Assembly: GCF_025602895.1 (NCBI RefSeq)
Contig: NW_026516335.1
Location: 1-64,000, forward strand
Length of the DNA stretch: 64,000 bases
Source of the DNA: Polychytrium aggregatum
Taxonomy: Eukaryota > Chytridiomycota > Chytridiomycetes > Polychytriales
Direction: 5' to 3'
Positions 345 to 29,588 of the stretch are shown in pieces (within the stretch, counting starts at the first letter, position 1; each line of letters opens with the position of its first letter). The position numbers and the translations under genes were made by a program. The notes beneath the pieces are model-generated. The model searched no databases. It was not told the origin of the DNA and worked only from the letters and a program-made list of their open reading frames with translations.

Positions 345-395
345 TGGCTTGTCTTCTTGAATAAAGTTGACTATAGTAACAAAAAAAAAAAAAAA
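345..395 (+). mobile_element. Nano-copy: only the 3' tail of the family 1 LINE
   Basis: About 36 bp identical to the last bases of the family 1 LINE 3' UTR, including its AATAAA signal, followed by 15 A residues (381-395). It is flanked on both sides by TAACC repeats. It reads as an extreme 5'-truncated insertion whose 5' end was capped by telomere repeats. The 5' junction shares at most one base (T) with the telomere repeat. Confidence 0.9.
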
Positions 396-423
396 CCTAA
401 CCTAACCTAACCTAACCTAACCT
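396..423. repeat. Internal telomere-repeat tract between two LINE copies
   Basis: Five to six CCTAA units sit between the poly(A) of the nano-copy and the truncated 5' end of copy A. The last CCT overlaps element sequence as a 3-bp microhomology. The tract indicates that copy A once formed the chromosome end and received telomere repeats before the next element was attached. Confidence 0.9.
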
Positions 424-3073
424 GATCCCCGAGATGCGGCAGCTTCGCGAGAGGCGCCGCGATCTCATCTACCAGCTCAAGTTGCCCGGGCTCTCCCTCC
501 GCGTCGCCGAGGACAAGCGCGCCGAACTCCGCGCTGTCCGCAAACAAGAAAAGAACCTCATCGTCCAGTCCCGCCGAGCAGCCGAGACCCTGGCCATGAA
601 CAAGCTGCACTCCCTCAACGCTTCCGAGGTCGCCAAGTCCCTGGCCGCCATGAAGAAGCGCAAGGAGCTCGACGACGCCTTCCACTTTGACAACTCGGAC
701 GAGGCCCTCGAGCGACTTGTGGTCCACTACGGCAAGGTCTCCTCGCACTCCCAGGACACCCCCGGTGCCGCCTTTGACCGGACCGTCGGCCCAAGACCCC
801 TGGACACTGTTCCGCGCCTGCTCCCCGAGGACCGCTCCATTCCCCGATTGTCGTCGGACGAGGTGGCCGATGCCATCGTCAAGTCCCCCAAGCGCAAGTC
901 TTCCGGCCCGGACAAGATCAAGGCCGAGATGCTGCACCCTGTCGCTCCCGTGGTCGCTCCCTGGCTCCGGGCCATCCTGCTGGCCGCCCTCAAGGCCTCC
1001 GTCGTCCCGACCGAGTGGAACACTGTCCTGATCCACCCGGTCTACAAGAACAAGGGTTCGATCCTCGATCCGGCCATGTACCGGCCCATCGGGTTGACCC
1101 AGGTCCTCCGCAAGATCGCCGAGCGAGTCCTGCTGCCGTTCCTCACCCGCGAGATCGGCATCATGGACATTGCCCAGGGAGGCTTCCGCCCGGACCGAGG
1201 CACCCTCGACCAGGTGTACTCGCTCGACGCTCTTGTCCGCATGAACAAGATCCGCGACGACGAGTACAGCCTGGTCTTCCTCGACATCAAGGCCGCCTAC
1301 GACACTGTCTGGCGGGAGCGCCTCTGGGACAAGATCGCCACCCGAGGTGCTGGTCCGGTCGCCGTCGGGGTCCTCAGGGCCATGTTCGACCGCACTCTTG
1401 TCCGCGTCGCCAGCAAGGGCCGCACGTCGCAGCCTGTGTGGCTGCAGAAGGGTCTCATCCAAGGCTCGGTCCTGAGTCCCCTTCTGTTCAGTGCCCACAT
1501 TGACGACCTGCCTGGACTGCTCCGAGCCGAGGACGGACTTGTGCTTGCCTCGAGTCGCCACCACCGTCTCCGGGTCAACTCGCTCTGGTTTGCCGATGAC
1601 GGTGTCCTCATCTGTCCGGCTGGCCGCACCCAGGCCATGCTGGATATCTGCGAACGCCACAGCATCGACAACCGGTACCGCTTCTCGCCTCCCAAGTGCG
1701 AGGTGCTGTACTCGGCCTGCAACGTCGACCAGCTCCATCCCGCCAAGCTGTACGGCACCGAGCTGCCCAAGGTCCTCCAGTTCCGCTACCTCGGTGTCAT
1801 GGTCGACATTGACGGATTCCGCCCGGACCTCCAGTTCGACAAGCTCCTCCGCAAGGTCCACATGGTCACCGACACCGTGGTTGGACTCGGCATCACCCTC
1901 GGCAAGGTCTCGGCCAAGACCATCACCCAGGTCTACAAGACCTTTGTGCGGCCGACCCTCGAATACGGGATGGCCATGGACATCCCCGACCCAGCTCTGC
2001 GCGACCGCCTCGACGACGCCCAGATGACGGCCCTCCGCACCATGTTCCGCGTCGGCCCCGGCACTCCCGTCGGTGCCATGCACCTCAACTGCGGCCTTCC
2101 CAAGATGTCGGTCCGTGTCAAGATGCTGGCCCTGCAGAACTGGGCCCGCTGGGACGACCAAGTCTCTGACGGCGACAAGATGCTGTCGATGATCCTGCGC
2201 AACAAGATCATTGCGCCCTACCACCCCGACCAGTTCCTCGGCCAAGGAGTCCGAGCCGATCCGCACTGGGCCATGGTGGTCCGCCGACAAGAGGCCGACC
2301 ACTCCCTCACGGCCACGGAGATCTACCGAGGCAAGACCCGACACCAGCCGCCGCCGCCCGGACCGCCCCGACCCCAGCCCGTCCCGATCAAGACCCTCAT
2401 CTTCGAGGACCACATGAAGAACGGCTTCGACCGCTCCAAGCAGCTCACCGCCGCCTGCACCCCGTCGACCAAGATGTCGGGACTCTGGGAGGCTCGCGGG
2501 TACCAAGGATCCATGATCATGCTCATGTTCATGGTCCGATGGCGACTCGGTGCTCTCCCAGGCCACTTCAGATTTGGCTACCGCAAGTGCAAGAACCTGG
2601 CTCGACACGGATCCGGGATCGACTTGACCAGGACCCACGCACAGCAGTGTGTGGATCCGCATCAAGTCCTGGTCCGCAAGGTCGCAGCCCTCAAGACGGC
2701 CCACCCGACTTGGGTGGAAAGTGGTATAGCCGGAGTGGGACCAGTGGACAAGCTGCTGGACCTGCTCAGTTTCGATCGCACTCCCCCTCGCAGTCGCACC
2801 CCTCCCGCACTTGGATCACTTGCTGCTCATGTACCCGCTCCCCGCACTGCCTTCCGAGCATTCGCACTTGGTGCACACCCAGCACCACCACCCACTCCCA
2901 CACCCAGTGTAGTCCCACCCTTGCAGTCTCTCCCTGCACCCTCATCACAGCGTAGTATAGTGTCAGCACTTGTCATTCCTCCACCCCGACCCCCCCTCGA
3001 TCCTGCTGTTCCCTTGTGGGAACTGCTCGAAAATGTGTTCACCCGCTTGGTCTCAGACCTTGTGGGCAGCTGA
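422..3073 (+). pseudogene. LINE ORF2, 3' part (reverse transcriptase), copy A
   Basis: Open reading frame of about 883 codons matching residues ~342 to 1224 of the full ORF2 in copy B; the endonuclease and linker are missing through 5' truncation. Reverse transcriptase landmarks are motif A (FLDIKAAYDTVW, about 1277-1312), motif B (GSVLSPLLF) and motif C (WFADDG, about 1588-1605). After the RT there is a thumb-like region, a Pro-rich stretch (PPPPGPPRP) and a Cys/His cluster (CKNLARHG then THAQQC) resembling the C-terminal zinc-knuckle of many LINEs. No RNase H domain was recognised. The frame is intact to its TGA stop but lacks a promoter and start, so it is a dead 5' truncation. The antisense ORF over the same DNA is a GC-bias shadow. 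Confidence 0.9.
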
Positions 3074-3167
3074 GGCAGCACTAGGCTGCAACAGGAGTAA
3101 ATAGGCTTGCCTGTGTACTCAACGTGCCGGGGTACCAACCTGTTGGACCTGATGGCTTGTCTTCTTG

Positions 3168-3173
3168 AATAAA
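3168..3173 (+). promoter_or_regulatory. Polyadenylation signal AATAAA of the LINE 3' UTR
   Basis: AATAAA lies 15 nt upstream of the poly(A) tail of copy A. The same signal stands at the same distance in the nano-copy, copy B and copy C. It indicates a polymerase II type polyadenylated transcript as the retrotransposition template. Confidence 0.8.
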
Positions 3174-3199
3174 GTTGACTATAGTAACAAAAAAAAAAA

Positions 3200-4438
3200 C
3201 CCGTCGTCAAGGCCAAGACCCCTCCTCCGTCCCAGGCTCCCGTCCCTGCGATGAAACCCGAGGAGGCCCTCGCTATCCTCAAGCGAGAGGCTGACCGGGT
3301 GCAGTCCATCCTGTTCGAGGCACTCGTGGCCGACAACATGGATGCTGCCACCAAGGCCATGGTCCAGAAGATCGCCAAGTCCAATGTGGCAATCAGCCGT
3401 GCCACGGAGCAGCTCCGCAAGTCTGTTGCCAACAAGACTGCCACCCCCAAGACCCAGTCCCCCGGTTCCAAGACCCAGTCCTCCGGCTCCCTCCCTGGCT
3501 CTGCCCCTGTTTCCGCCCCGTCTCCCTCGTACAAGGCCGCTCTCTTGAAGAACGTTCGGGAGGCCGAGAGCCGTGTCGGCCGCATGTCCGAGGCCAGCCA
3601 GCTCGACGAATGGAAGAGGATGCTGACCACCGGCCGAATGCCAGGCTCCTCCAAGCCGATCCAGCCCAACCAGCACCGCCAGCCAGTCCTTGTCCCCGGG
3701 ACGGTCGCCAACTCTGAGCTCCGGAACGACAAGTTCAGGGAGGCCGTCACCAACATGGACTGGCTGTACGTCGAGGGCATCCGCTGTGGCGACCTCGGCA
3801 GTGTCCGCCGCAACCTCAAGCGATGCGGCATCGACACCAGGGAGTTGGCCGAGATCAACTTCCCTGAGGCCACGGTCATGGAGGTCCTTGTCCGCGACAA
3901 ATCCAACAAGGCCGACCTTGGTGCCCGTCTGGAGTCGCTGTCGTCCACACATGGCAGGGTCAGGGTCGTACCGGCCTACGACGTCATCCATGGTCTCAAG
4001 CACCATGGACTGGCCCTGTCCCGATCCGATGCCATCAAGAACTTTATGGCAAAGTCCCTCCGCCAGGCAGCCAAGGCCAAGACCGCCCCTGTCCGCCGCT
4101 GCATCCAGATGCGCATCCCCGAGGAGTACCGCGACGAGTACGACTCGCTCCTCAAGAAGGCCCTATCCGGCAAGGAGGTCAAGCGGGCGGACATCACCGC
4201 CGTCCCCAAGGTCCCTGGTTCTGCCGCTGCCGCTGCCTCGTCGTCTGCCTCTGCCGCTGCCGCTACCGCTGCCCCTGCCGTTGTCGTTGCTGTCGCTGCT
4301 GCTGCTGCCCCCGCCGCTGGTGCCTCGTCAAAGCCCAGCAAGCCTCACCCCGCCTACAGAGTCCCGCTGTCCGTCATGGACACTGACTCTGAAGGAGAGG
4401 GCCCCCGGGCCAGCAGCAGCGCTGCACGACTCCAATGA
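3200..4438 (+). CDS. LINE ORF1 protein (5'-partial), copy B
   Basis: Frame open from the upstream poly(A) junction to TGA at 4436-4438; the first in-frame ATG is at 3251, but the reading frame extends upstream, so the annotated N-terminus is probably missing. The protein has a Pro/Ser-rich N-terminal part, a central basic region likely to bind the element RNA, and an Ala-rich low-complexity C-terminal tail. No CCHC zinc knuckles are visible, unlike the ORF1 of many R1/I-type elements. Its stop codon overlaps the ORF2 start as ATGA. The role as an RNA-binding chaperone that forms an RNP is inferred from position in the element; no family was recognised with certainty. Copy C carries the C-terminal two thirds with a few substitutions. 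Confidence 0.8.
   Translation, partial: PVVKAKTPPPSQAPVPAMKPEEALAILKREADRVQSILFEALVADNMDAATKAMVQKIAKSNVAISRATEQLRKSVANKTATPKTQSPGSKTQSSGSLPGSAPVSAPSPSYKAALLKNVREAESRVGRMSEASQLDEWKRMLTTGRMPGSSKPIQPNQHRQPVLVPGTVANSELRNDKFREAVTNMDWLYVEGIRCGDLGSVRRNLKRCGIDTRELAEINFPEATVMEVLVRDKSNKADLGARLESLSSTHGRVRVVPAYDVIHGLKHHGLALSRSDAIKNFMAKSLRQAAKAKTAPVRRCIQMRIPEEYRDEYDSLLKKALSGKEVKRADITAVPKVPGSAAAAASSSASAAAATAAPAVVVAVAAAAAPAAGASSKPSKPHPAYRVPLSVMDTDSEGEGPRASSSAARLQ
4435..4438 (+). promoter_or_regulatory. ATGA stop/start overlap coupling ORF1 and ORF2
   Basis: The ORF2 ATG (4435-4437) overlaps the ORF1 TGA (4436-4438). The same arrangement occurs in copy C (19942-19945). Overlaps of this kind in other LINEs, for example Bombyx SART1, allow ORF2 translation by termination-reinitiation; that mechanism is inferred here. 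Confidence 0.75.
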
Positions 4439-5059
4439 ATCCACACCCCTCGCAGGGAGGCGGCAGGGCCCAGACATCCCTGACCGTCGCTTCCTTCAAT
4501 GTCTGTGGCATCAACGTCAACGACGTTGAACTCAAGAACCTCATCGACACCAACGACATCGACTTTGTCGGTGTCCAAGAAACCCTCGCCGACCTCGAAC
4601 CCCGCAGCCCTCTCTGTGGCTATGCCGTCAAGGTCCCTGGTCCCCGTTGCCGCGCCGGTAGAGGCATCGCCATCCTCTACAACCCGGCCAGGATCGACCC
4701 GCACGACTTCACCAACATTGAAGTCAGCGACAAGGGCGACGCCATGTGGGTGACATACAAACACGTCATCCACATCGGCAACTTCTACCTGTCCCCGAGC
4801 CTCAAGCTGGACGACTACCGCGAGGCCCTCCAGTCGATCCACACCAAGGCCGCCCTCCCCGACGCCCAGGTCATTGTGGTGGGTGACTTCAATGCCCACC
4901 TCAGTGCCCTGAGCGGACTGCCCACGCCGCTCCGTGGCAGGGAGAAGATCCTCGAGGACACTGTCTCCCGCGCCGGTCTCCGCGTTGTGCCTCCAGCTGT
5001 GATCCCGACCCACACCCGGCAGCGGGGTCCCAGCTGGACAACGATCGACTACATCTTTG
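4435..5059 (+). pseudogene. LINE ORF2, 5' part (APE-type endonuclease), copy B
   Basis: First 208 codons of ORF2, starting at the ATG that overlaps the ORF1 stop. It encodes an endonuclease/exonuclease/phosphatase-fold domain with the expected motifs: SFNVCG, VQET, GDFNAH and TTIDYIFV. The remaining catalytic motif (SDHFP) lies in the continuation after the gypsy insertion. The endonuclease would nick target DNA to prime reverse transcription. The reading frame is broken at 5060 by the gypsy LTR, so the complete ORF2 (1225 codons including stop when the insertion and one TSD copy are ignored) is no longer expressed from this copy. Confidence 0.9.
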
Positions 5060-5368
5060 TGTAACGTCCACTACTGGGACGTTGGGGCAAGACGGGGAGG
5101 GAGGGGGTACAAGACAAGACAGGACGGGGCAGAACAGGGCGGTGCTAGGCTACTCTAGCGGACGGGTGAGCTCGGGGAGCACTTACGTTTATTCACGATA
5201 AAACCGAACTCCAGACAAACGGGGGGAACGGGGGCAACCCGCAGGTATACCCTGCGGTGGCCTGCCTGCGGTGCGTGAAAACGCAAAGCGCAGCACAGGT
5301 CACGACCCACTGCGCCGCGCAGTACGCGCAGTACGCGCAGCACAGCGTCGGAGATACCATCTCCTACA
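5060..5368 (-). repeat. LTR of gypsy 1 (its 3' LTR)
   Basis: 309 bp, starting TGTAACG and ending CCTACA on the + strand (TG...CA termini). On the element strand it carries an AATAAA-type signal (GTGAATAAACG) downstream of a TATA-like TTTTATC. Both termini hold small inverted repeats: AACGTCC/GGACGTT at one end and GGAGAT/ATCTCC at the other. All complete LTRs in the window look identical. Confidence 0.95.
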
Positions 5369-5377
5369 CTCCCACAC

Positions 5378-8183
5378 TTAAGAAGGCTTCCTGCGAGGAG
5401 CCCTGCGTGTGCTCTTTATTTGGGGCTCCTCGAGGTGTTTACCGTATTTACTCAGCTCCTCGGGTGCATGGGACAAGTCCTCCAGTGTTTGCCATGTGTT
5501 GCCCGAGTGTGGGTAACCAACCCACTTGACATAAAACCGAAGTGACCCATCAGCCACTTTCTTGTGCCTCACGATCCTTTCGACTTCATATTCTTGAGTA
5601 TAGTATTGTCCGAGGTCGTCTTCCAGTGGTGCGTCGTCCGGGACACCTTCGTCGGCGTCGGGGAACTGTGCTGGACTGCGGGTCGTGTGGCGACGCAGCT
5701 TGGACACATGGAAGACAGGATGGAGCTTGCTTCCAGGTGGCAAGTCCAACAGGTAGTTGAGGGGACTGGGTCGGGCCGCTATCTTGAACGGTCCTCGGTA
5801 CTTGGGCAACAACTTCTTTGACTGGGCTTCGGGGACCTTGATGTTGTCGGCGTCCAGGTAGACAAGGTCTCCAACTTCAAAGGAGACATCCTGGTGTCGG
5901 CGGTCGTAGTACTTCGCCATCACTTGTTGCGCATCCGTGAGCGCGTCGGCGATCATCTTGTGTCGGACTTGATGATCTTTGACAAAGGCACTTGGTTTGG
6001 GAGGCAATCCAGCCGTGGACTCGGTCAGTGTCAAGGAGGTGGGAACATCAGGCTGGAATCCGTAGAGCGCCTCAAAGGGGCTCAAGCCAGTTGTGCTCGA
6101 CTTGGCGGTGTTGTATGCAAACTCTGCATGACTCAGCTGTATGTCCCAGTCGTCTTGGCTGGTCGAGGCGTATGTCCTCAGGTATTGCTCGAGGGTGCGG
6201 ATCGTCCGCTCGGACTGTCCATCCGTTTGTTGGTGGTGCGAGGTTGACATGTTCAGCTTGGTGCCGAGATGGTCGAACAGACTTGTCCAAAACAAGGAGG
6301 TGAATCGGGGGTCTCGATCACTGACGATGGACTTTGGGAGGCCGTGGTGCTTGAACACATGCTTGAAGAACAGCAGTGCAAGGTCAGGCGCGGAGCATGT
6401 CGTCTGGCACGGCACAAAGTGTGCCATCTTGCTGAACCTGTCGACAAAGACAGCGATTGCATCGTGGTCCAACTTGGTCGTCGGTAGATGCGTGATGAGA
6501 TCCATGGACATGCTGGTCCAGGGGCGGTCGGGAACAGGCAGGGGTTGCAGCAATCCTTGCTCTCGGGTCGTGCGTGACTTGACCATCTTGCAGGTATGGC
6601 AGGACTCGATGTACTTCTCGACGGTGCGCTTCATTCCAGGCCAGTATGCGACTTTGGCCAGTCGGTCGTATGTCTTCTCGACTCCAAAGTGTCCAGCGAG
6701 GGGCGAGTCGTGGACCTCTTGGAGCAACTTGGTCTTCAACGACGGAATGTCCGGCACACAGACACGGCTGTCCTTCTTCAGGAGGAGCAGGCCATCACGC
6801 ACTGTGTACTCGGATGATTCGTCGTCCTTGGGGAGCTTAGACACCTTTCGGAACAGTTCTCCGAACTGTTTGTCGTTGGCGATGTTGTCTCGGACAACAT
6901 CCAGCATCGTGTTGTCGACACTGACAGTCGACTCGTACAGTGACGCCAATTGGTAGTCGGGGCGTCGGGACAGTGCGTCAGGCACCACATTGAGTTTGCC
7001 TTTCTGGTATACAACCTCGTAGTTGTACTCGGCGAGGAACTCCATCCATCGCGCTTGGCGTCGGCTCAGGTTCTTCTTGGTGTCGAGGTAACGCAGTGAC
7101 TGGTGGTCCGTCACAATCTTGAAGGGCTTGGCGGTACCGTGGAGGTACACTCGGAACTTCTGCAGCGCGTAGATGATCGCAAGCTGCTCCTTCTCGTGCA
7201 CGGGATAGTTGATCTCGTGTTGGGACAGTTTGCGCGACTCGAAGGCAACGGGCCTTCCCTCCTGCATCAAAACAGCTCCCACCGCAAAGTCGGAGGCGTC
7301 GGTGTGCACGGAGACATCCGTGTTCGGGTCGAACACAGCGAGGACAGGAGCGTTCGTCAAGGCGTGCTTGAGGGTCTCGAACGCTTGGCGTTGTGGGTGG
7401 TCCCACACGAAGGGGCACTCTTTGCGGAGTAGGTCTGTGAGTGGACCGGCAGTGCGCGCCAGATCGGGGATGAATCGGCGGTAGTAGTTGACGAGACCGA
7501 GAAACGACTGCACGTCAGAGACGCATGCGAGCGGCGGCCACTCGACCACAGACTTGACCTTGGCGGGGTCGACTTCGATTCCTCTTCCTGAGACAACGTG
7601 TCCCAGGAACGGGACTTGATTCTTGAAGAACTCACACTTGGACAGTTTGGCATACAACTTGTGCTCGCGTAGCTTGGCCAGCACGCGGGCGACATGACCT
7701 TCATGGGTCGCTTCATCCTTGCTGTACACAAGGATATCATCCAGGTACACGATGACAGAGTTGTCGAGCTCTTGGCGGAACACATCGTTCATCAGCTGCA
7801 TGAACGTGGCAGGTGCGTTCGTCAATCCGAACGGCAGCACTAGGAACTCGTACAGTCCGTAGCGAGTCCTGAAGGCGGTCTTGTGGACATCATCCTCGTG
7901 GATGCGGATCTGATGGTAGCCTGAGCGGAGGTCTATCTTGCTAAAGACCTTTGCTCCACTCAGACGATCCATCAACTCGTCGATCCTGGGCAACGGGTAG
8001 GTGTTCTTGATGGTCTGTTTGTTTAGTGCGCGATAGTCGACGCACATCCTGAGATCACCTTCTTTCTTCTTGACAAAGAGCACTGGTGCACCATACGGTG
8101 ACTGGCTCGGGCGGATGAACCCATGGGCGAGGAGGTCATCCAACTGGCGCTTGAGTTCGTCCATCTCCGTCAGCGACAGTTGG
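5378..8183 (-). pseudogene. gypsy 1 pol, 3' part (RT, RNase H, integrase, chromodomain)
   Basis: The C-terminal ~935 codons of Pol from the outer element, separated from the upstream part (13656-14782) by the inner gypsy insertion. It contains RT (YLDD box), RNase H, integrase zinc finger, DDE core and C-terminal chromodomain, identical in translation to the intact copy at 8502-12434. Joined across the insertion, the frame would have the same length as that copy, so the only visible lesion is the nested insertion. Confidence 0.92.
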
Positions 8184-8492
8184 TGTAACGTCCACTACTG
8201 GGACGTTGGGGCAAGACGGGGAGGGAGGGGGTACAAGACAAGACAGGACGGGGCAGAACAGGGCGGTGCTAGGCTACTCTAGCGGACGGGTGAGCTCGGG
8301 GAGCACTTACGTTTATTCACGATAAAACCGAACTCCAGACAAACGGGGGGAACGGGGGCAACCCGCAGGTATACCCTGCGGTGGCCTGCCTGCGGTGCGT
8401 GAAAACGCAAAGCGCAGCACAGGTCACGACCCACTGCGCCGCGCAGTACGCGCAGTACGCGCAGCACAGCGTCGGAGATACCATCTCCTACA
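8184..8492 (-). repeat. LTR of gypsy 2 (3' LTR)
   Basis: 309-bp LTR, same sequence as 5060-5368 by eye. It is preceded by GTTGG of the target and followed on the + strand by the polypurine tract. Confidence 0.95.
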
Positions 8493-8501
8493 CTCCCACA
8501 C
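8493..8501 (-). promoter_or_regulatory. Polypurine tract of gypsy 2
   Basis: On the minus strand the nine bases GTGTGGGAG separate the pol stop codon (TAA) from the 3' LTR. The position and purine bias fit the plus-strand primer site. The same tract stands next to 5368 and 22163 in the other copies. Confidence 0.7.
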
Positions 8502-11500
8502 TTAAGAAGGCTTCCTGCGAGGAGCCCTGCGTGTGCTCTTTATTTGGGGCTCCTCGAGGTGTTTACCGTATTTACTCAGCTCCTCGGGTGCATGGGACAA
8601 GTCCTCCAGTGTTTGCCATGTGTTGCCCGAGTGTGGGTAACCAACCCACTTGACATAAAACCGAAGTGACCCATCAGCCACTTTCTTGTGCCTCACGATC
8701 CTTTCGACTTCATATTCTTGAGTATAGTATTGTCCGAGGTCGTCTTCCAGTGGTGCGTCGTCCGGGACACCTTCGTCGGCGTCGGGGAACTGTGCTGGAC
8801 TGCGGGTCGTGTGGCGACGCAGCTTGGACACATGGAAGACAGGATGGAGCTTGCTTCCAGGTGGCAAGTCCAACAGGTAGTTGAGGGGACTGGGTCGGGC
8901 CGCTATCTTGAACGGTCCTCGGTACTTGGGCAACAACTTCTTTGACTGGGCTTCGGGGACCTTGATGTTGTCGGCGTCCAGGTAGACAAGGTCTCCAACT
9001 TCAAAGGAGACATCCTGGTGTCGGCGGTCGTAGTACTTCGCCATCACTTGTTGCGCATCCGTGAGCGCGTCGGCGATCATCTTGTGTCGGACTTGATGAT
9101 CTTTGACAAAGGCACTTGGTTTGGGAGGCAATCCAGCCGTGGACTCGGTCAGTGTCAAGGAGGTGGGAACATCAGGCTGGAATCCGTAGAGCGCCTCAAA
9201 GGGGCTCAAGCCAGTTGTGCTCGACTTGGCGGTGTTGTATGCAAACTCTGCATGACTCAGCTGTATGTCCCAGTCGTCTTGGCTGGTCGAGGCGTATGTC
9301 CTCAGGTATTGCTCGAGGGTGCGGATCGTCCGCTCGGACTGTCCATCCGTTTGTTGGTGGTGCGAGGTTGACATGTTCAGCTTGGTGCCGAGATGGTCGA
9401 ACAGACTTGTCCAAAACAAGGAGGTGAATCGGGGGTCTCGATCACTGACGATGGACTTTGGGAGGCCGTGGTGCTTGAACACATGCTTGAAGAACAGCAG
9501 TGCAAGGTCAGGCGCGGAGCATGTCGTCTGGCACGGCACAAAGTGTGCCATCTTGCTGAACCTGTCGACAAAGACAGCGATTGCATCGTGGTCCAACTTG
9601 GTCGTCGGTAGATGCGTGATGAGATCCATGGACATGCTGGTCCAGGGGCGGTCGGGAACAGGCAGGGGTTGCAGCAATCCTTGCTCTCGGGTCGTGCGTG
9701 ACTTGACCATCTTGCAGGTATGGCAGGACTCGATGTACTTCTCGACGGTGCGCTTCATTCCAGGCCAGTATGCGACTTTGGCCAGTCGGTCGTATGTCTT
9801 CTCGACTCCAAAGTGTCCAGCGAGGGGCGAGTCGTGGACCTCTTGGAGCAACTTGGTCTTCAACGACGGAATGTCCGGCACACAGACACGGCTGTCCTTC
9901 TTCAGGAGGAGCAGGCCATCACGCACTGTGTACTCGGATGATTCGTCGTCCTTGGGGAGCTTAGACACCTTTCGGAACAGTTCTCCGAACTGTTTGTCGT
10001 TGGCGATGTTGTCTCGGACAACATCCAGCATCGTGTTGTCGACACTGACAGTCGACTCGTACAGTGACGCCAATTGGTAGTCGGGGCGTCGGGACAGTGC
10101 GTCAGGCACCACATTGAGTTTGCCTTTCTGGTATACAACCTCGTAGTTGTACTCGGCGAGGAACTCCATCCATCGCGCTTGGCGTCGGCTCAGGTTCTTC
10201 TTGGTGTCGAGGTAACGCAGTGACTGGTGGTCCGTCACAATCTTGAAGGGCTTGGCGGTACCGTGGAGGTACACTCGGAACTTCTGCAGCGCGTAGATGA
10301 TCGCAAGCTGCTCCTTCTCGTGCACGGGATAGTTGATCTCGTGTTGGGACAGTTTGCGCGACTCGAAGGCAACGGGCCTTCCCTCCTGCATCAAAACAGC
10401 TCCCACCGCAAAGTCGGAGGCGTCGGTGTGCACGGAGACATCCGTGTTCGGGTCGAACACAGCGAGGACAGGAGCGTTCGTCAAGGCGTGCTTGAGGGTC
10501 TCGAACGCTTGGCGTTGTGGGTGGTCCCACACGAAGGGGCACTCTTTGCGGAGTAGGTCTGTGAGTGGACCGGCAGTGCGCGCCAGATCGGGGATGAATC
10601 GGCGGTAGTAGTTGACGAGACCGAGAAACGACTGCACGTCAGAGACGCATGCGAGCGGCGGCCACTCGACCACAGACTTGACCTTGGCGGGGTCGACTTC
10701 GATTCCTCTTCCTGAGACAACGTGTCCCAGGAACGGGACTTGATTCTTGAAGAACTCACACTTGGACAGTTTGGCATACAACTTGTGCTCGCGTAGCTTG
10801 GCCAGCACGCGGGCGACATGACCTTCATGGGTCGCTTCATCCTTGCTGTACACAAGGATATCATCCAGGTACACGATGACAGAGTTGTCGAGCTCTTGGC
10901 GGAACACATCGTTCATCAGCTGCATGAACGTGGCAGGTGCGTTCGTCAATCCGAACGGCAGCACTAGGAACTCGTACAGTCCGTAGCGAGTCCTGAAGGC
11001 GGTCTTGTGGACATCATCCTCGTGGATGCGGATCTGATGGTAGCCTGAGCGGAGGTCTATCTTGCTAAAGACCTTTGCTCCACTCAGACGATCCATCAAC
11101 TCGTCGATCCTGGGCAACGGGTAGGTGTTCTTGATGGTCTGTTTGTTTAGTGCGCGATAGTCGACGCACATCCTGAGATCACCTTCTTTCTTCTTGACAA
11201 AGAGCACTGGTGCACCATACGGTGACTGGCTCGGGCGGATGAACCCATGGGCGAGGAGGTCATCCAACTGGCGCTTGAGTTCGTCCATCTCCGTCAGCGA
11301 CAGTTGGTACGTCGGTCTTGACGGAGGCGACGAGCCTGGTTCGATGTCGATGCGATGATCGACGGTGCGTTGGGGTGGCAGGCATTGTGGCAACTGGTCG
11401 GGGAATACGTCCTTGTACTCGTCGAGCAGCTTGGTCACCACAGGCGGGGGACCGGGACCGGCTTGGTCGGTGTCGTCGACCTCACGCACGACACAGAGGA

Positions 11501-13650: not shown

Positions 13651-13655
13651 GTTGG

Positions 13656-15998: not shown

Positions 15999-16003
15999 CT
16001 TTG

Positions 16004-19183: not shown

Positions 19184-19945
19184 CGCCAGCCAGTCCTTGT
19201 CCCCGGGACGGTCGCCAACTCTGAGCTCCGGAACGACAAGTTCAGGGAGGCCGTCACCAACATGGACTGGCTGTACGTCGAGGGCATCCGCTGTGGCGAC
19301 CTCGGCAGTGTCCGCCGCAACCTCAAGCGATGCGGCATCGACACCAGGGAGTTGGCCGAGATCAACTTCCCTGAGGCCACGGTCATGGAGGTCCTTGTCC
19401 GCGACAAGGCCAACAAGGCCGACCTTGGTGCCCGTCTGGAGTCGCTGTCGTCCGCACATGGCAGGGTCAGGGTCGTACCGGCCTACGACGTCATCCATGG
19501 TCTCAAGCACCATGGACTGGCCCTGTCCCGATCCGATGCCATCAAGAACTTTATGGCAAAGTCCCTCCGCCAGGCAGCCAAGGCCAAGACCGCCCCTGTC
19601 CGCCGCTGCATCCAGATGCGCATCCCCGAGGAGTACCGCGACGAGTACGACTCGCTCCTCAAGAAGGCCCTATCCGGCAAGGAGGTCAAGCGGGCGGACA
19701 TCACCGCCGTCCCCAAGGTCCCTGGTTCTGCCGCTGCCGCTGCCTCGTCGTCTGCCTCTGCCGCTGCCGCTACCGCTGCCCCTGCCGTTGTCGTTGCTGT
19801 CGCTGCTGCTGCTGCCCCCGCCGCTGGTGCCTCGTCAAAGCCCAGCAAGCCTCACCCCGCCTACAGAGTCCCGCTGTCCGTCATGGACACTGACTCTGAA
19901 GGAGAGGGCCCCCGGGCCAGCAGCAGCGCTGCACGACTCCAATGA
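19184..19945 (+). pseudogene. LINE ORF1, 3' part, copy C
   Basis: The last ~253 codons of ORF1, truncated at the poly(A) junction. It carries the conserved basic core and the Ala-rich tail and stops at the ATGA overlap with ORF2. There are two or three amino-acid changes relative to copy B. Confidence 0.88.
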
Positions 19946-21854
19946 ATCCACACCCCTCGCAGGGAGGCGGCAGGGCCCAGGCATCCCTGACCGTCGCTTC
20001 CTTCAATGTCTGTGGCATCAACGTCAACGACGTTGAACTCAAGAACCTCATCGACACCAACGACATCGACTTTGTCGGTGTCCAAGAAACCCTCGCCGAC
20101 CTCGAACCCCGCAGCCCTCTCTGTGGCTATGCCGCCAAGGTCCCTGGTCCCCGTTGCCGCGCCGGCAGAGGCATCGCCATCCTCTACAACCCGGCCAGGA
20201 TCGACCCGCACGACTTCACCAACATTGAAGTCAGCGACAAGGGCGACGCCATGTGGGTGACATACAAACACGTCATCCACATCGGCAACTTCTACCTGTC
20301 CCCGAGCCTCAAGCTGGACGACTACCGCGAGGCCCTCCAGTCGATCCACACCAAGGCCGCCCTCCCCGACGCCCAGGTCATTGTGGTGGGTGACTTCAAT
20401 GCCCACCTCAGTGCCCTGAGCGGACTGCCCACGCCGCTCCGTGGCAGGGAGAAGATCCTCGAGGACACTGTCTCCCGCGCCGGTCTCCGCGTTGTGCCGC
20501 CAGCTGTGATCCCGACCCACACCCGGCAGCGGGGTCCCAGCTGGACAACGATCGACTACATCTTTGTGTCGCATCGCCAGGCCAACAACGACCCGCTGCT
20601 GCAGGTCGACACTGCCGGTGCCTTCCGTGGCCAGTCCGACCACTTCCCCATCTGGGCGACTCTGCGGGTACAGCCAAAGTACTACCCAAAGGTCGACCAA
20701 TGGCAGTGGAAGATCGCCCAGCTCGAGGATCCCGCCGTCCGCGCCCAGTACCTCTTGGCGCTGCTGGACGAGCGCGAACGCGGTCTGCAGCGCATCCAGG
20801 CTGCACTGCGGCCAATCTCAAGGGGATCGGTCATTCCGATCTCGGAGAGTGCGGCCCAGGACTGCATCGACCGCGCCTGGTCCATCATGATCGCCCTGAT
20901 CACCACCGCTGCCGACTCCACCATCGGCAAGGCTTCCATCAAGACCGTCTGGAAGGACCCGGCCCTGATCCCCGAGATGCGGCAGCTTCGCGAGAGGCGC
21001 CGCGATCTCATCTACCAGCTCAAGTTGCCCGGGCTCTCCCTCCGCGTCGCCGAGGACAAGCGCGCCGAACTCCGCGCTGTCCGCAAACAAGAAAAGAACC
21101 TCATCGTCCAGTCCCGCCGAGCAGCCGAGACCCTGGCCATGAACAAGCTGCACTCCCTCAACGCTTCCGAGGTCGCCAAGTCCCTGGCCGCCATGAAGAA
21201 GCGCAAGGAGCTCGACGACGCCTTCCACTTCGACAACTCGGACGAGGCCCTCGAGCGACTTGTGGTCTACTACGGCAAGGTCTCGTCGCACTCCCAGGAC
21301 ACCCCCGGTGCCGCCTTTGACCGGACCGTCGGCCCAAGACCCCTGGACACTGTTCCGCGCCTGCTCCCCGAGGACCGCTCCATTCCCCGCTTGTCGTCGG
21401 ACGAGGTGGCCGATGCCATCGTCAAGTCCCCCAAGCGCAAGTCTTCCGGCCCGGACAAGATCAAGGCCGAGATGCTGCACCCTGTCGCTCCCGTGGTCGC
21501 TCCCTGGCTCCGGGCCATCCTGCTGGCCGCCCTCAAGGCCTCCGTCGTCCCGACCGAGTGGAACACTGTCCTGATCCACCCGGTCTACAAGAACAAGGGT
21601 TCGATCCTCGATCCGGCCATGTACCGGCCCATCGGGTTGACCCAGGTCCTCCGCAAGATCGCCGAGCGAGTCCTGCTGCCGTTCCTCACCCGCGAGATCG
21701 GCATCATGGACATTGCCCAGGGAGGCTTCCGCCCGGACCGAGGCACCCTCGACCAGGTGTACTCGCTCGACGCTCTTGTCCGCATGAACAAGATCCGCGA
21801 CGACGAGTACAGCCTGGTCTTCCTCGACATCAAGGCCGCCTACGACACTGTCTG
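19942..21854 (+). pseudogene. LINE ORF2, 5' part, copy C (endonuclease and start of RT)
   Basis: About 637 codons from the ATG, giving the only uninterrupted endonuclease domain in the window: SFNVCG, VQET, GDFNAH, IDYIFVSH and SDHFPIW are all present. The frame continues through the linker to RT motif A (DIKAAYDTV), where the third gypsy is inserted. The remainder is at 27322-28789 with a gap. Confidence 0.92.
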
Positions 21855-22163
21855 TGTAACGTCCACTACTGGGACGTTGGGGCAAGACGGGGAGGGAGGG
21901 GGTACAAGACAAGACAGGACGGGGCAGAACAGGGCGGTGCTAGGCTACTCTAGCGGACGGGTGAGCTCGGGGAGCACTTACGTTTATTCACGATAAAACC
22001 GAACTCCAGACAAACGGGGGGAACGGGGGCAACCCGCAGGTATACCCTGCGGTGGCCTGCCTGCGGTGCGTGAAAACGCAAAGCGCAGCACAGGTCACGA
22101 CCCACTGCGCCGCGCAGTACGCGCAGTACGCGCAGCACAGCGTCGGAGATACCATCTCCTACA
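21855..22163 (-). repeat. LTR of gypsy 3 (3' LTR)
   Basis: Complete 309-bp LTR with TG...CA termini, followed by the polypurine tract and the pol stop. Confidence 0.95.
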
Positions 22164-22172
22164 CTCCCACAC

Positions 22173-25100
22173 TTAAGAAGGCTTCCTGCGAGGAGCCCTG
22201 CGTGTGCTCTTTATTTGGGGCTCCTCGAGGTGTTTACCGTATTTACTCAGCTCCTCGGGTGCATGGGACAAGTCCTCCAGTGTTTGCCATGTGTTGCCCG
22301 AGTGTGGGTAACCAACCCACTTGACATAAAACCGAAGTGACCCATCAGCCACTTTCTTGTGCCTCACGATCCTTTCGACTTCATATTCTTGAGTATAGTA
22401 TTGTCCGAGGTCGTCTTCCAGTGGTGCGTCGTCCGGGACACCTTCGTCGGCGTCGGGGAACTGTGCTGGACTGCGGGTCGTGTGGCGACGCAGCTTGGAC
22501 ACATGGAAGACAGGATGGAGCTTGCTTCCAGGTGGCAAGTCCAACAGGTAGTTGAGGGGACTGGGTCGGGCCGCTATCTTGAACGGTCCTCGGTACTTGG
22601 GCAACAACTTCTTTGACTGGGCTTCGGGGACCTTGATGTTGTCGGCGTCCAGGTAGACAAGGTCTCCAACTTCAAAGGAGACATCCTGGTGTCGGCGGTC
22701 GTAGTACTTCGCCATCACTTGTTGCGCATCCGTGAGCGCGTCGGCGATCATCTTGTGTCGGACTTGATGATCTTTGACAAAGGCACTTGGTTTGGGAGGC
22801 AATCCAGCCGTGGACTCGGTCAGTGTCAAGGAGGTGGGAACATCAGGCTGGAATCCGTAGAGCGCCTCAAAGGGGCTCAAGCCAGTTGTGCTCGACTTGG
22901 CGGTGTTGTATGCAAACTCTGCATGACTCAGCTGTATGTCCCAGTCGTCTTGGCTGGTCGAGGCGTATGTCCTCAGGTATTGCTCGAGGGTGCGGATCGT
23001 CCGCTCGGACTGTCCATCCGTTTGTTGGTGGTGCGAGGTTGACATGTTCAGCTTGGTGCCGAGATGGTCGAACAGACTTGTCCAAAACAAGGAGGTGAAT
23101 CGGGGGTCTCGATCACTGACGATGGACTTTGGGAGGCCGTGGTGCTTGAACACATGCTTGAAGAACAGCAGTGCAAGGTCAGGCGCGGAGCATGTCGTCT
23201 GGCACGGCACAAAGTGTGCCATCTTGCTGAACCTGTCGACAAAGACAGCGATTGCATCGTGGTCCAACTTGGTCGTCGGTAGATGCGTGATGAGATCCAT
23301 GGACATGCTGGTCCAGGGGCGGTCGGGAACAGGCAGGGGTTGCAGCAATCCTTGCTCTCGGGTCGTGCGTGACTTGACCATCTTGCAGGTATGGCAGGAC
23401 TCGATGTACTTCTCGACGGTGCGCTTCATTCCAGGCCAGTATGCGACTTTGGCCAGTCGGTCGTATGTCTTCTCGACTCCAAAGTGTCCAGCGAGGGGCG
23501 AGTCGTGGACCTCTTGGAGCAACTTGGTCTTCAACGACGGAATGTCCGGCACACAGACACGGCTGTCCTTCTTCAGGAGGAGCAGGCCATCACGCACTGT
23601 GTACTCGGATGATTCGTCGTCCTTGGGGAGCTTAGACACCTTTCGGAACAGTTCTCCGAACTGTTTGTCGTTGGCGATGTTGTCTCGGACAACATCCAGC
23701 ATCGTGTTGTCGACACTGACAGTCGACTCGTACAGTGACGCCAATTGGTAGTCGGGGCGTCGGGACAGTGCGTCAGGCACCACATTGAGTTTGCCTTTCT
23801 GGTATACAACCTCGTAGTTGTACTCGGCGAGGAACTCCATCCATCGCGCTTGGCGTCGGCTCAGGTTCTTCTTGGTGTCGAGGTAACGCAGTGACTGGTG
23901 GTCCGTCACAATCTTGAAGGGCTTGGCGGTACCGTGGAGGTACACTCGGAACTTCTGCAGCGCGTAGATGATCGCAAGCTGCTCCTTCTCGTGCACGGGA
24001 TAGTTGATCTCGTGTTGGGACAGTTTGCGCGACTCGAAGGCAACGGGCCTTCCCTCCTGCATCAAAACAGCTCCCACCGCAAAGTCGGAGGCGTCGGTGT
24101 GCACGGAGACATCCGTGTTCGGGTCGAACACAGCGAGGACAGGAGCGTTCGTCAAGGCGTGCTTGAGGGTCTCGAACGCTTGGCGTTGTGGGTGGTCCCA
24201 CACGAAGGGGCACTCTTTGCGGAGTAGGTCTGTGAGTGGACCGGCAGTGCGCGCCAGATCGGGGATGAATCGGCGGTAGTAGTTGACGAGACCGAGAAAC
24301 GACTGCACGTCAGAGACGCATGCGAGCGGCGGCCACTCGACCACAGACTTGACCTTGGCGGGGTCGACTTCGATTCCTCTTCCTGAGACAACGTGTCCCA
24401 GGAACGGGACTTGATTCTTGAAGAACTCACACTTGGACAGTTTGGCATACAACTTGTGCTCGCGTAGCTTGGCCAGCACGCGGGCGACATGACCTTCATG
24501 GGTCGCTTCATCCTTGCTGTACACAAGGATATCATCCAGGTACACGATGACAGAGTTGTCGAGCTCTTGGCGGAACACATCGTTCATCAGCTGCATGAAC
24601 GTGGCAGGTGCGTTCGTCAATCCGAACGGCAGCACTAGGAACTCGTACAGTCCGTAGCGAGTCCTGAAGGCGGTCTTGTGGACATCATCCTCGTGGATGC
24701 GGATCTGATGGTAGCCTGAGCGGAGGTCTATCTTGCTAAAGACCTTTGCTCCACTCAGACGATCCATCAACTCGTCGATCCTGGGCAACGGGTAGGTGTT
24801 CTTGATGGTCTGTTTGTTTAGTGCGCGATAGTCGACGCACATCCTGAGATCACCTTCTTTCTTCTTGACAAAGAGCACTGGTGCACCATACGGTGACTGG
24901 CTCGGGCGGATGAACCCATGGGCGAGGAGGTCATCCAACTGGCGCTTGAGTTCGTCCATCTCCGTCAGCGACAGTTGGTACGTCGGTCTTGACGGAGGCG
25001 ACGAGCCTGGTTCGATGTCGATGCGATGATCGACGGTGCGTTGGGGTGGCAGGCATTGTGGCAACTGGTCGGGGAATACGTCCTTGTACTCGTCGAGCAG

Positions 25101-26105
25101 CTTGGTCACCACAGGCGGGGGACCGGGACCGGCTTGGTCGGTGTCGTCGACCTCACGCACGACACAGAGGAACGACGTGTCCTTCTTGATCAGCCTCTTG
25201 AATTGCATGGCTGAGAGGAGAGGTGGCATGTTGGGTGAGGCCATGCCCTGCAGGACAATGTCAGGGCCAACACGGACAGTGCGGCCTTTCCAGTCGACGA
25301 CTGGAGTCGGCTCGGCACGAGCAAGCCAGCTCATGCCGAGGATGGCATCGAACTTGGTGTCGATCACTTGGAACAACAGGACAGGATGGTACTTGGGATG
25401 GAGGGCCACTCGCAGGACCACTTGGTGTGTGCACTGCTGCACACGATCGTCTGCAAGCGCCACACTCATCGGCGACTTCTTCTTGGTTGCATGTATGTTG
25501 AGCTCCTGGAGCAAGCGTCTGCTGACAAAGTTGCAGCTTGCTCCAGAGTCCACCATCATTCGGACGGTGTGACCTTGGACGGTGGCAGGGAGGTACAGCA
25601 GGGACTCTTCATGGTCCTCCTGCACAGCCTCCTGCACCATGACTTGACTTGGGGGAACGGGCGACACTTGGTCTTGGTTGGCTTCATCACGGCCACTCGG
25701 ACATTTTGGATAGGGTTCGGCCATTGCGGGGGCCTGCGGCGTCAGCACGCCATTGCACACGACGTCCACGGCTTGCGGACACATGTCGGAAGCATCCGAC
25801 ACACACGACTTGACAGGGGTGAGGGCACAGGCGGTCCTGTCCCTCAAGGGTTCTTGATTTTCTTTTTTGTTTTGGTTTTCAATTTTGGTTTTCTCTTCAC
25901 GTTCGTGGAGAGGCAGGCGGCTTGCGCCACCATGCACCTCTCGCACGACGCACAACACTTGGTTTGTTTCTCCTTCGGGGGAGGGGGCGAGGTGAACTTC
26001 CTCTGGAGACGCGTGGACTGCATTGAGCAATCCACGGCGTTGGTCTCCTACTAGGGCTCCAGAGCCACCTAGTAGGGTCGGCCGTTTCCCGACTTCATGG
26101 GGCAC
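22173..26105 (-). CDS. pol: gypsy Pol polyprotein, third copy
   Basis: 1310-codon frame with protease (DSGAS), RT (YLDD), RNase H, HHCC and DDE integrase and chromodomain, in translation the same as 8502-12434. It is joined to gag by the same frameshift signal (26047-26090). The protein-coding part appears functional even though the 5' LTR border is damaged by only two bases. Confidence 0.95.
26047..26090 (-). promoter_or_regulatory. -1 frameshift signal, gypsy 3
   Basis: GGGAAAC (26090-26084), 7-nt spacer and the same hairpin as in the other two copies. Confidence 0.88.
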
Positions 26106-26890
26106 TCCTTGGCCTGGTGTCCCGGTCGGTGACAGAAGAAGCAGGAACCATGGCGGAGGTCCTCCTGCTTCTGTCTGTCCTTGGGGGAGACAGTGGCAGC
26201 TTGCTGGAACCGGGAGCGGGGAGGGCCACGAGCCTCCATGGCGTTGACGTCAACGTCCATGGGCTCAGGCATGGGTCTTGCGGGCGGGGCCGGGCGAGGC
26301 GGACGGGCTGGGACGTGATGAGACCGATGGCCGCCTGCCAGCTGCGGGTAGAACTGGCGGCCATGGTACTGGACGTTGTCGAGGTTCTCGGCAACGTCCA
26401 TCATCACGTCCAGGGACTTGCGGGCATCAGGGTTGCTGGCGATGTACTCTCTGATCTTGGGCTTGAGGCCCTTCTGGAAGAGGTACATCGCATCAGCAGA
26501 GCCCAGCTCCTCAATCTGGGAGGAGAGGTCTTCAAACTCCTCGATGTAGCGGGTCACAGAACCACGCTGCACGAGAGAGTATAGCTTGTCACGGGCAATG
26601 AGTTCAGCATTGGGGCTGCCGAAGCGGCGACGGAGGCGGTCCTTGAAGTCGTCAAACACACCTTCGCTCTGCTCGTCGAACCCTTGGCGGCGGTACCAAC
26701 GGTACGCCTGGTCCTTTAAGCAGAGCTTGGCGGCGACGATGTGGTGGGTGGGGGCGACTTGGGCAGCATCGAGGTAGTCCTCGAGTTGCTGCAGCCAGTC
26801 CTCCACCGAGGAGGAGCGGCTCTTCCCAGTAAACACTGGGGCACGGAAGGTCTTGAGGAAGGCTTCCGGAAGTGGGCGGGGGTTGCTCAT
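26069..26890 (-). CDS. gag: gypsy Gag protein, third copy
   Basis: 273-aa Gag with capsid-like region and CCHC knuckle, identical in translation to the other two copies. The primer-binding site is at 26995-27012. Confidence 0.94.
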
Positions 26891-27012
26891 GGCAGGGGCA
26901 GGCTCCAGGGACAGAGAGGAGAGTCGGTCGGCAAGAGAGGCGGGATCCAGCTTGAGGATCTAGAAAGAGGACAAACAGGACGAAAACAAGACGAGGATTT
27001 CCGATGCTACCA

Positions 27013-27319
27013 TGTAACGTCCACTACTGGGACGTTGGGGCAAGACGGGGAGGGAGGGGGTACAAGACAAGACAGGACGGGGCAGAACAGGGCGGTGCTA
27101 GGCTACTCTAGCGGACGGGTGAGCTCGGGGAGCACTTACGTTTATTCACGATAAAACCGAACTCCAGACAAACGGGGGGAACGGGGGCAACCCGCAGGTA
27201 TACCCTGCGGTGGCCTGCCTGCGGTGCGTGAAAACGCAAAGCGCAGCACAGGTCACGACCCACTGCGCCGCGCAGTACGCGCAGTACGCGCAGCACAGCG
27301 TCGGAGATACCATCTCCTA
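27013..27319 (-). repeat. LTR of gypsy 3 (5' LTR, two bases short)
   Basis: Matches the 309-bp LTR except that the terminal CA is absent, replaced by GG before LINE ORF2 sequence resumes. This marks a deletion breakpoint rather than a normal integration border. Confidence 0.9.
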
Positions 27320-27321
27320 GG

Positions 27322-28789
27322 CCTCATCTGTCCGGCTGGCCGCACCCAGGCCATGCTGGATATCTGCGAACGCCACAGCATCGACAACCGGTACCGCTTC
27401 TCGCCTCCCAAGTGCGAGGTGCTGTACTCGGCCTGCAACGTCGACCAGCTCCATCCCGCCAAGCTGTACGGCACCGAGCTGCCCAAGGTCCTCCAGTTCC
27501 GCTACCTCGGTGTCATGGTCGACATTGACGGATTCCGCCCGGACCTCCAGTTCGACAAGCTCCTCCGCAAGGTCCACATGGTCACCGACACCGTGGTTGG
27601 ACTCGGCATCACCCTCGGCAAGGTCTCGGCCAAGACCATCACCCAGGTCTACAAGACCTTTGTGCGGCCGACCCTCGAATACGGGATGGCCATGGACATC
27701 CCCGACCCAGCTCTGCGCGACCGCCTCGACGACGCCCAGATGACGGCCCTCCGCACCATGTTCCGCGTCGGCCCCGGCACTCCCGTCGGTGCCATGCACC
27801 TCAACTGCGGCCTTCCCAAGATGTCGGTCCGTGTCAAGATGCTGGCCCTGCAGAACTGGGCCCGCTGGGACGACCAAGTCTCTGACGGCGACAAGATGCT
27901 GTCGATGATCCTGCGCAACAAGATCATTGCGCCCTACCACCCCGACCAGTTCCTCGGCCAAGGAGTCCGAGCCGATCCGCACTGGGCCATGGTGGTCCGC
28001 CGACAAGAGGCCGACCACTCCCTCACGGCCACGGAGATCTACCGAGGCAAGACCCGACACCAGCCGCCGCCGCCCGGACCGCCCCGACCCCAGCCCGTCC
28101 CGATCAAGACCCTCATCTTCGAGGACCACATGAAGAACGGCTTCGACCGCTCCAAGCAGCTCACCGCCGCCTGCACCCCGTCGACCAAGATGTCGGGACT
28201 CTGGGAGGCTCGCGGGTACCAAGGATCCATGATCATGCTCATGTTCATGGTCCGATGGCGACTCGGTGCTCTCCCAGGCCACTTCAGATTTGGCTACCGC
28301 AAGTGCAAGAACCTGGCTCGACACGGATCCGGGATCGACTTGACCAGGACCCACGCACAGCAGTGTGTGGATCCGCATCAAGTCCTGGTCCGCAAGGTCG
28401 CAGCCCTCAAGACGGCCCACCCGACTTGGGTGGAAAGTGGTATAGCCGGAGTGGGACCAGTGGACAAGCTGCTGGACCTGCTCAGTTTCGATCGCACTCC
28501 CCCTCGCAGTCGCACCCCTCCCGCACTTGGATCACTTGCTGCTCATGTACCCGCTCCCCGCACTGCCTTCCGAGCATTCGCACTTGGTGCACACCCAGCA
28601 CCACCACCCACTCCCACACCCAGTGTAGTCCCACCCTTGCAGTCTCTCCCTGCACCCTCATCACAGCGTAGTATAGTGTCAGCACTTGTCATTCCTCCAC
28701 CCCGACCCCCCCTCGATCCTGCTGTTCCCTTGTGGGAACTGCTTGAAAATGTGTTCACCCACTTGGTCTCAGACCTTGTGGGCAGCTGA
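27322..28789 (+). pseudogene. LINE ORF2, 3' part, copy C
   Basis: Resumes just after RT motif C (FADDG is lost) and runs to the ORF2 stop, with the Cys/His C-terminal region. Compared with copy A, bases equivalent to 1312-1605 (RT motifs B and C) are absent, so this copy could not encode an active RT even without the gypsy insertion. Confidence 0.9.
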
Positions 28790-28916
28790 GGCAGCACTAG
28801 GCTGCAACAGGAGTAAATAGGCTTGCCTGTGTACTCAACGTGCCGGGGTACCAACCTGTTGGACCTGATGGCTTGTCTTCTTGAATAAAGTTGACTATAG
28901 TAACAAAAAAAAAAAA

Positions 28917-29489
28917 GGTGGGGACTTAGTACCTCACTCCGACCAGAGTGTGGACTTAGTGCCCCACCACCCCGAACCGAGCTCAGACCTTGCCTCGGGG
29001 TCGAACTGGGGAGGAACCTCAGAGTCTGGCTCAGAGTCTGGCTCAGAGTACTCCCCTGATGGCAACCAAGACTCCCTCCCGAACCGAGACCGAAACCGGG
29101 CCAGGGAGACGAATAGAAACATAGTCTCTGGCCTCGAAACCATAGAGGTTCCCACGCCCTCCCAAGGACGAAGTACTGACCCGATCCCAGAGTCCGACGA
29201 TGACTTGGGACTGGGTCAGACCCCAGGATACGAGATAAATCCCGAGTACCCCTCCCACAGACAAACTCACACTCCTTTGAGGGCAAGTCCAGACCCAACA
29301 CCGCACAGCAAACCCTGGAGTGGGTTCGAGTTGATACTAGAGAGGGACTTGGAGAAACCAGCCCCTGACATCCCGGAGCGGGACTTGGAGACATGCGACT
29401 CCCTCTGGGAGTTATTAGAGGGAGTGTTCACCCGCATGGCTCGCCGTGTGGGCTGGAGAGTCGGCGAAGGCCGCAACAGGGGTGTATGA
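28917..29489 (+). pseudogene. LINE family 2 ORF2, C-terminal fragment
   Basis: Open frame truncated at the poly(A) junction, ending at TGA 29487-29489. It is rich in Ser, Pro, Asp and Glu, with repeats such as SESGSESGSE, and has no recognisable catalytic domain. Only the last ~20 residues resemble family 1 ORF2. It corresponds to the variable tail after the RT. Confidence 0.75.
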
Positions 29490-29588
29490 GCGAGCTTGGC
29501 CACCCACTGCCGGGTATCCTAGGATACTGATGGCATGTTGAATATTCTTGAATATACAACTATCAAAACAAAAACAAAAAAAAAAAAA
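28917..29588 (+). mobile_element. LINE family 2, 3' fragment (innermost element)
   Basis: Directly follows the poly(A) of copy C. It has about 190 codons of open frame, a short 3' UTR and an A-rich tail (29564-29588). The extreme C-terminus (LWELLEGVFTRM) matches LWELLENVFTRL of family 1, and the 3' UTRs share CTGATGGC and TTCTTGAATA near the tail, while the rest does not align. It is therefore a related but distinct family and the oldest layer of the stack. Unique chromosomal sequence starts at 29589. Confidence 0.82.

Follow-up and report, generated by a model that had tools for sequence, protein, structure and literature searches.

How do five pieces of retrotransposons without long terminal repeats (LTRs) come to lie head-to-tail, in a single orientation, directly beneath a fungal telomere? 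The question is raised by one end of contig C39 (111,867 bp) in the genome of the chytrid Polychytrium aggregatum (64.7 Mb in 418 contigs), of which we analyzed bases 1-64000 ("the window"). From the tip inwards, this end has a TTAGG-type telomere, then five pieces of long interspersed elements (LINEs) from two families, and then host DNA, which begins at 29589. All five pieces have their 3' A-tails on the right, or centromere, side. We conclude that family 1, an APE-type LINE that is apparently active, probably adds itself to chromosome ends, with the 3' end of the terminus acting as the primer.

The sequence-only reading of this DNA had described such a stack of five pieces with inward A-tails, in which each tail runs directly into the truncated 5' end of the next piece and a short telomere tract is the sole exception. 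The coordinates (345-29588) confirm this: there are three direct joints and one CCTAA tract of 27 nt. Absent from that reading were the three Ty3/gypsy elements that interrupt two of the family 1 copies (B and C).

Family 1 and its place in the genome

The second open reading frame (ORF2) of family 1 encodes an APE endonuclease and a reverse transcriptase (Pfam PF03372, PF14529 and PF00078), and it retains the motifs GDFN, SDH and FADD. Pfam finds the N-terminal APE domain and the reverse transcriptase on the element and no other family, although no search was made for the REL motif as such. The best match of the family 1 protein in PDB is human L1 ORF2p. The portion of ORF1 in copy B has no Pfam match. 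All of the features of an APE-type LINE are present: an APE domain with a LINE-type reverse transcriptase, a poly(A) tail, and 5' truncation. When we scored the best 51 of 570 candidate matches to the reverse transcriptase half, all 51 were 100% identical (rounded) and free of stop codons, and 29 of the 51 had an open frame of 1238 amino acids around that half. Judging from these sequences, family 1 is apparently active. Some copies (L009, L013, L014, L034 and L155) have a longer 5' leader, of at least ~790 bp, instead of a 5' end that is joined to telomere repeats; longer-leader copies are on contigs C1, C13, C57 and C375.

The genome also has the means to maintain telomeres in the usual way. 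The RNA-binding domain of telomerase (TERT) was found in three pieces at C408:433.5-434.1 kb, each above the cut-off, and the tips of C39 and C40 carry TTAGG tracts of 344 and ~354 nt.

We searched the genome for the 3' end of family 1 and found 106 forward and 94 reverse matches (~200 in all), while a reversed control gave 0. (Past contig C232, tails of 12 and 13 A were listed in part.) We listed 76 of these 3' ends on contigs of 100 kb or more. In 71 cases the contig end faced by the 5' side is no more than 62 kb away and the A-tail points inward, and these 71 are spread over 26 contig ends. When contigs must reach 200 kb, 50 of 54 are near-terminal, versus 7.7% expected by chance (P = 5e-51, but the sites cannot be taken as independent, and we chose the 62-kb limit with the data in view). 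It is this survey of the genome, and not the window by itself, that shows the one-way stack to be more than chance. Shared polarity and restriction to chromosome ends had been named beforehand as the test of end-on addition, and both are seen among the listed copies. The accompanying claim, that the copies do not reflect random internal insertion, holds for these 71, but four of the 76 are internal copies or relics and one is inverted.

These five exceptions are on C28, C68, C377, C112 (at 710 kb) and C375 (at 462 kb). The copies on C68 and C377 are diverged relics that end in AAAT and share the same flank. The two intact-looking internal sites, on C112 (L099) and C375 (L160), lie among Ty3/gypsy pieces that share one sequence (301 bp, 99.7% identical), and on the 5' side of the C375 copy we reached nested LTR elements but no outer flank. 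Perhaps these two sites are centromeric or are former chromosome ends. Contig C262 (25,471 bp) has copies with A-tails toward both of its ends; this and the inverted arrangement on C28 could be end-to-end fusions or assembly palindromes.

Family 2 is distributed less strictly. Scoring 40 of 83 candidates gave 44 matches, which have the same polarity as family 1 near many contig ends, but some copies lie far from any contig end, such as those on C46 (454 kb) and C377 (137-141 kb).

What the two ends of each copy adjoin

We read the 3' joints of 110 of the ~200 copies, and the other ~90 were left out of the counts. The A-tail is followed by at least 9 nt of telomere repeat in 27 of the 110, by family 1 itself in 39 (at 31 distinct positions), and by other sequence in 44. 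The last group includes the two relics, the C112 case, related LINEs, the long leader of family 1 (C1, C13 and C57), and others. The C215 joint is onto a short family 1 piece that is cut off by a gypsy element. Among the 83 joints without a tract there is one with 7 nt of telomere repeat. Every listed tract starts with CCTAACC after the As (47 joints, with any register allowed), and the uninterrupted internal telomere runs are 22-58 nt, versus 344 and ~354 nt at the two tips. At locus L115 (C183:8400-8800), about four CCTA units separate an A-tail from a LINE leader; they resemble a variant telomere repeat (TAGG).

The bases at the joints indicate what kind of DNA end was used. At 27 of the 31 distinct joints onto family 1, the last lost base of the target is A, versus an expected frequency of 0.329 for random breakpoints, allowing for As absorbed into the tail (P = 6e-10). 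Joints 4083 and 4084 might be one event, and with either removed, P is still below 2e-9. At seven further sites where an uninterrupted sequence could be compared (C13/C57, C46, C79, C193, C195, C198 and C224), the base is also A, with an extra C at C224. With this A, the T at the end of the primer is able to pair with poly(A). The overlap tells us that the strand used for priming had a T at its end, and this T came either from the terminus as such or from a cut by APE followed by loss of the outer piece. The kept bases beside the joint favor YC (18 of 27, versus 0.28 expected; P = 3e-5, unadjusted for the choice of motif), while on the lost side of these 27 joints no base column would survive correction. 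The primer strand at C112 has AGG added to its native GGTT before the poly(A), as the first step of telomerase would leave it. At the C1 joint the bases are CC, as against CG at two other joints.

The 5' sides tell us what was outside each copy. Of 60 that were readable, 24 adjoin an A-tail, 19 a telomere repeat and 13 an LTR or LTR-like sequence, and 4 have the longer leader. (Another 36 segments ran off the locus, and the loci overlap. Of the 13 LTR ends, the two in the window and the one at L017 match a gypsy LTR, and the others were judged by eye.) If a LINE had inserted into intact DNA, the outer part of the target should still be there beyond the new copy. We sought the lost part of the target outside the overlying copy and saw it at 0 of the 60 readable 5' sides, which speaks against insertion into intact DNA. 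We also rejected telomere-specific insertion as the sole route, because 83 of the 110 joints have no tract.

The 5' sides support the end-on addition proposed in the sequence-only reading, and the A bias at the joints fits priming by a DNA 3' end; we infer that the terminus is that end. In outline, a chromosome end with no telomere, or with just a few TTAGG repeats, would offer its 3' end. Its terminal T (often in ...GGT or ...GAT) would pair with the poly(A) of the LINE RNA and prime reverse transcription, so that the new copy would point its A-tail toward the centromere and its 5' end, often truncated, toward the tip. The tip might afterwards receive another LINE or a telomerase cap, and recombination might later copy blocks of the array from end to end.

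A more specific suggestion, which we consider rather doubtful, is that the short-leader form carries its own telomere seed. If its RNA starts with about five CCUAA units, then each complete reverse transcription would leave a TTAGG 3' end, which telomerase could extend or the next LINE could use. Seven short-leader 5' ends (on C2, C20, C40, C59, C309 and, twice, C170) all have a telomere run of 28 nt before the overlying A-tail, and at least three different copies overlie them. Against this, tracts of ~31 nt (C195) and ~63 nt (C40 and C284) precede the same 5' end, and the copies on C1, C13, C57 and C375 have the longer leader instead. Also, recombination might have spread a single 28-nt tract.

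The window and a second form of its end

The features of the window are listed in Table 1. With their gypsy elements included, copy B extends over 3200-19182 and copy C over 19183-28916. The A-tails at the joints of A with B, B with C, and C with the family 2 fragment (11, 14 and 12 A) run straight into the following piece, and no telomere repeat separates them. The first 2 nt of copy A are common to the 27-nt telomere tract that precedes it.

Table 1. Features of the contig end, from the tip inwards (the window is bases 1-64000 of C39)
Feature	Position	Strand	Details	Method or match
Terminal telomere tract	1-344	.	(CCTAA)n, that is, TTAGG repeats; few CCCTAA/CCTGA variants	tandem repeat finder, variant counts
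Nano-copy, LINE family 1	345-395	+	final 36 nt of the element and A15	
Internal telomere tract	396-422	.	CCTAA, 27 nt, from nano-copy to copy A	
Copy A, family 1	421-3199	+	5'-truncated; frame 3567-6334; reverse transcriptase part of ORF2; A11 tail	
Copy B, family 1, 5' part	3200-5059	+	from frame position 1310; adjoins A-tail of copy A	
Outer Ty3/gypsy chromovirus	5060-15998	-	within copy B; 5-bp duplication CTTTG	self-comparison, joints
Inner Ty3/gypsy chromovirus	8184-13650		nested in the outer one; 5-bp duplication GTTGG	
Copy B, family 1, 3' part	15999-19182	+	A14 tail	
Copy C, family 1, 5' part	19183-21854	+	from frame position 1786; APE domain; adjoins A-tail of copy B	
Third Ty3/gypsy chromovirus	21855-27319	-	within copy C; chromodomain	self-comparison, Pfam, joints
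Copy C, family 1, 3' part	27320-28916	+	A12 tail	
LINE family 2, 3' fragment	28917-29588	+	A-tail; directly after tail of copy C, then host DNA	
Host stretch in Sel1-repeat ORF	30643-30975	.	common to C198 base for base	333/333 identical

The gypsy elements show what ordinary internal insertion looks like at this locus: the two that are nested in copy B have 5-bp duplications, and they look different from the LINE joints. The third lacks the last 2 nt of its LTR, along with ~294 bp of the flanking LINE, which implies a deletion at one edge and not a clean insertion. Its chromodomain was identified by Pfam, and the other two are near-identical to it by self-comparison.

Another contig, C198, is a second form of this same end. 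It is identical to the window over the 333 bases read from base 30643, and at that base, inside the Sel1-repeat ORF, it has a family 1 A-tail instead. (The preceding base in the window is A.) The window's form extends 1,054 bp further, up to the family 2 fragment. About 1.3 kb further out on C198, its first 120 bases have no match to family 1 or to the window. The two forms, which may be haplotypes or assembly versions, are capped by LINEs at different host positions.

In the host DNA, a Pfam family was found in 1 of the 10 ORFs of the window, and this was Sel1. A frame of 1045 codons on the minus strand (35034-38171) contains a 63-bp unit 18 times (35334-36480) and is possibly a repetitive surface protein. 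Elsewhere in the genome, alpha-aminoadipate reductase, an enzyme characteristic of fungi, has matches in five pieces on C57 that together span positions 101-1379 of 1390 (~1580 bits when added up). Each piece taken singly is below the cut-off, and 12 of 14 prokaryote controls also give weaker matches, so that this gene makes a fungal host likely.

Alternative explanations and known telomeric elements

Several observations weigh against priming by the terminus, or at least against its being the whole story. Intact-looking copies are internal at C112:710 kb and C375:462 kb, as are the relics on C68 and C377, and the right end of C28 has an inverted copy at its tip. Four of the 31 joints lack the A, and a preferred base before the joint would also be expected from a nick after T. 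The APE endonuclease has retained its motifs, although pure terminal priming has no need of it. Finally, the same joints are found on several contigs, and the repeated block on C207 is a sign of array growth by recombination.

The main alternative is that APE makes a nick after a T (GRT), either in subterminal DNA or in telomere repeats, that the nick primes reverse transcription, and that the outer piece of the chromosome is then lost. The endonuclease is indeed intact by Pfam, with its GDFN and SDH motifs, and a primer that ends in T with a preference for GR before it could be a cutting rule. But such sites are common everywhere, yet 71 of the 76 listed copies are near-terminal; the internal telomere tracts have the small size that would be expected if the element had used short ends and not cut full telomeres at random; and the base preference is on the kept side only (27 joints). 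Because few of the listed copies are internal, the internal tracts are short, and the preference is confined to the kept side (albeit in a small sample), we prefer the terminus to a nick and regard nicking as unlikely. Two parts of this account are what we infer from the evidence: that the 3' end comes from the terminus, and in what order the events took place.

The other alternatives concern how the copies were chained together. The enzyme might leave one LINE RNA and start on the next A-tail, so that several head-to-tail copies arise in a single event. R2-type LINE enzymes make such end-to-end jumps, with direct joints and a 1-nt overlap, and our direct joints and overlaps are what jumping would give; but 27 of 110 joints have a telomere tract that separates the copies, and the gypsy elements are confined to single copies, both of which point to separate events. 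Template jumping is very unlikely. Or recombination alone (break-induced replication or unequal exchange) might have copied one ancestral array among the chromosome ends, with little new retrotransposition. The 6147 joint does recur on C20, C170 and C309, and C207 has a block of two units (~2.81 + 2.96 kb) that is repeated along the contig, with the same joints each time, and recurs on C38. The recurring joints show that arrays are built by recombination as well. As the only process it seems slightly less probable even than jumping: there are 31 distinct joint positions on family 1, and recombination does not explain their A bias. Least probable of all is that mis-assembly of repeats chained the copies. 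Many contigs do end inside arrays, C28 has its inverted end, and C262 has A-tails both ways, but mis-joins would not favor A at the breakpoint, and telomere repeats form the tips of C39 and C40.

Addition of LINEs to chromosome termini is best known from Drosophila, and the sequence-only reading had likened this locus to HeT-A and TART. In the account of PMC5537684, the HeT-A, TART and TAHRE elements also form head-to-tail arrays with poly(A) toward the centromere and truncated 5' ends, and are added to the chromosome end; TART and TAHRE also have an APE-type endonuclease. In contrast, according to the same account, flies have no telomerase, so the arrays are the telomere, and the elements are never interior, whereas P. 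aggregatum has telomerase, TTAGG caps and a few internal copies (C112:710 kb, C375:462 kb, and the relics on C68 and C377). The likeness therefore stands for the form and polarity of the array but not for replacement of telomerase.

Two fungal systems are also similar. MoTeR elements of Pyricularia (Magnaporthe) oryzae, as portrayed in PMC7367193, have their 5' ends toward the chromosome end and form arrays with truncated copies, a chromodomain gypsy element (MAGGY), spread by break-induced replication, and internal relics. But MoTeR1 has a REL endonuclease, and its copies are separated by telomere or variant repeats, while family 1 has APE and no tract of at least 9 nt at 83 of 110 joints. 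FoTeR of Fusarium oxysporum is another telomere-confined fungal LINE, with tandem repeats in its 5' region; as PMC12857005 presents it, its endonuclease is of the REL type, it is grouped with Cnl1, SLACS and CRE, and 3-7 telomere repeats follow every FoTeR 3' end, as opposed to 27 of 110 joints here.

More distant systems share parts of the pattern. Giardia GilT, GilM and GilD are head-to-tail in one direction, with 5' truncation and telomere repeats outside the array (PMC5537684), but Giardia is a diplomonad and not a fungus, and the likeness we draw is one of array form. Zepp of Chlorella is a LINE that accumulated at telomeres, but in a green alga. Insects have TTAGG-type telomere repeats. 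Their TRAS and SART elements are LINEs that live at telomeres beside telomerase, but, according to PMC10088271, they insert into the telomere repeats, TRAS in the opposite orientation to SART, whereas direct joints dominate among those that we read. A telomere tract of at least 9 nt is absent at 83 of the 110 joints and present, on the 3' side, at 27. Endonuclease-independent insertion of LINE-1 at dysfunctional telomeres (mentioned in PMC4700185) is another case. It is reported from cells with mutated telomere function, while here the chromosome end is the element's main habitat. What the two have in common is the use of an uncapped end by an APE-type LINE. In our literature search, which had limited coverage of subscription journals, we found no APE-type LINE stacked on fungal chromosome ends among the papers listed. 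Overall, family 1 works like HeT-A, yet it is a different system, and its APE nuclease would separate it from MoTeR and FoTeR.

Telomerase and LINE reverse transcriptases are related, and takeover of chromosome ends by LINEs is known mainly from flies, which lost telomerase. In P. aggregatum, an apparently active APE-type LINE seems to share the ends with telomerase, and its joints record which 3' ends were used. Among fungi, where MoTeR and FoTeR are of the REL type, it is a telomere element of another sort. If true, competition between telomerase and a LINE would be directly testable.

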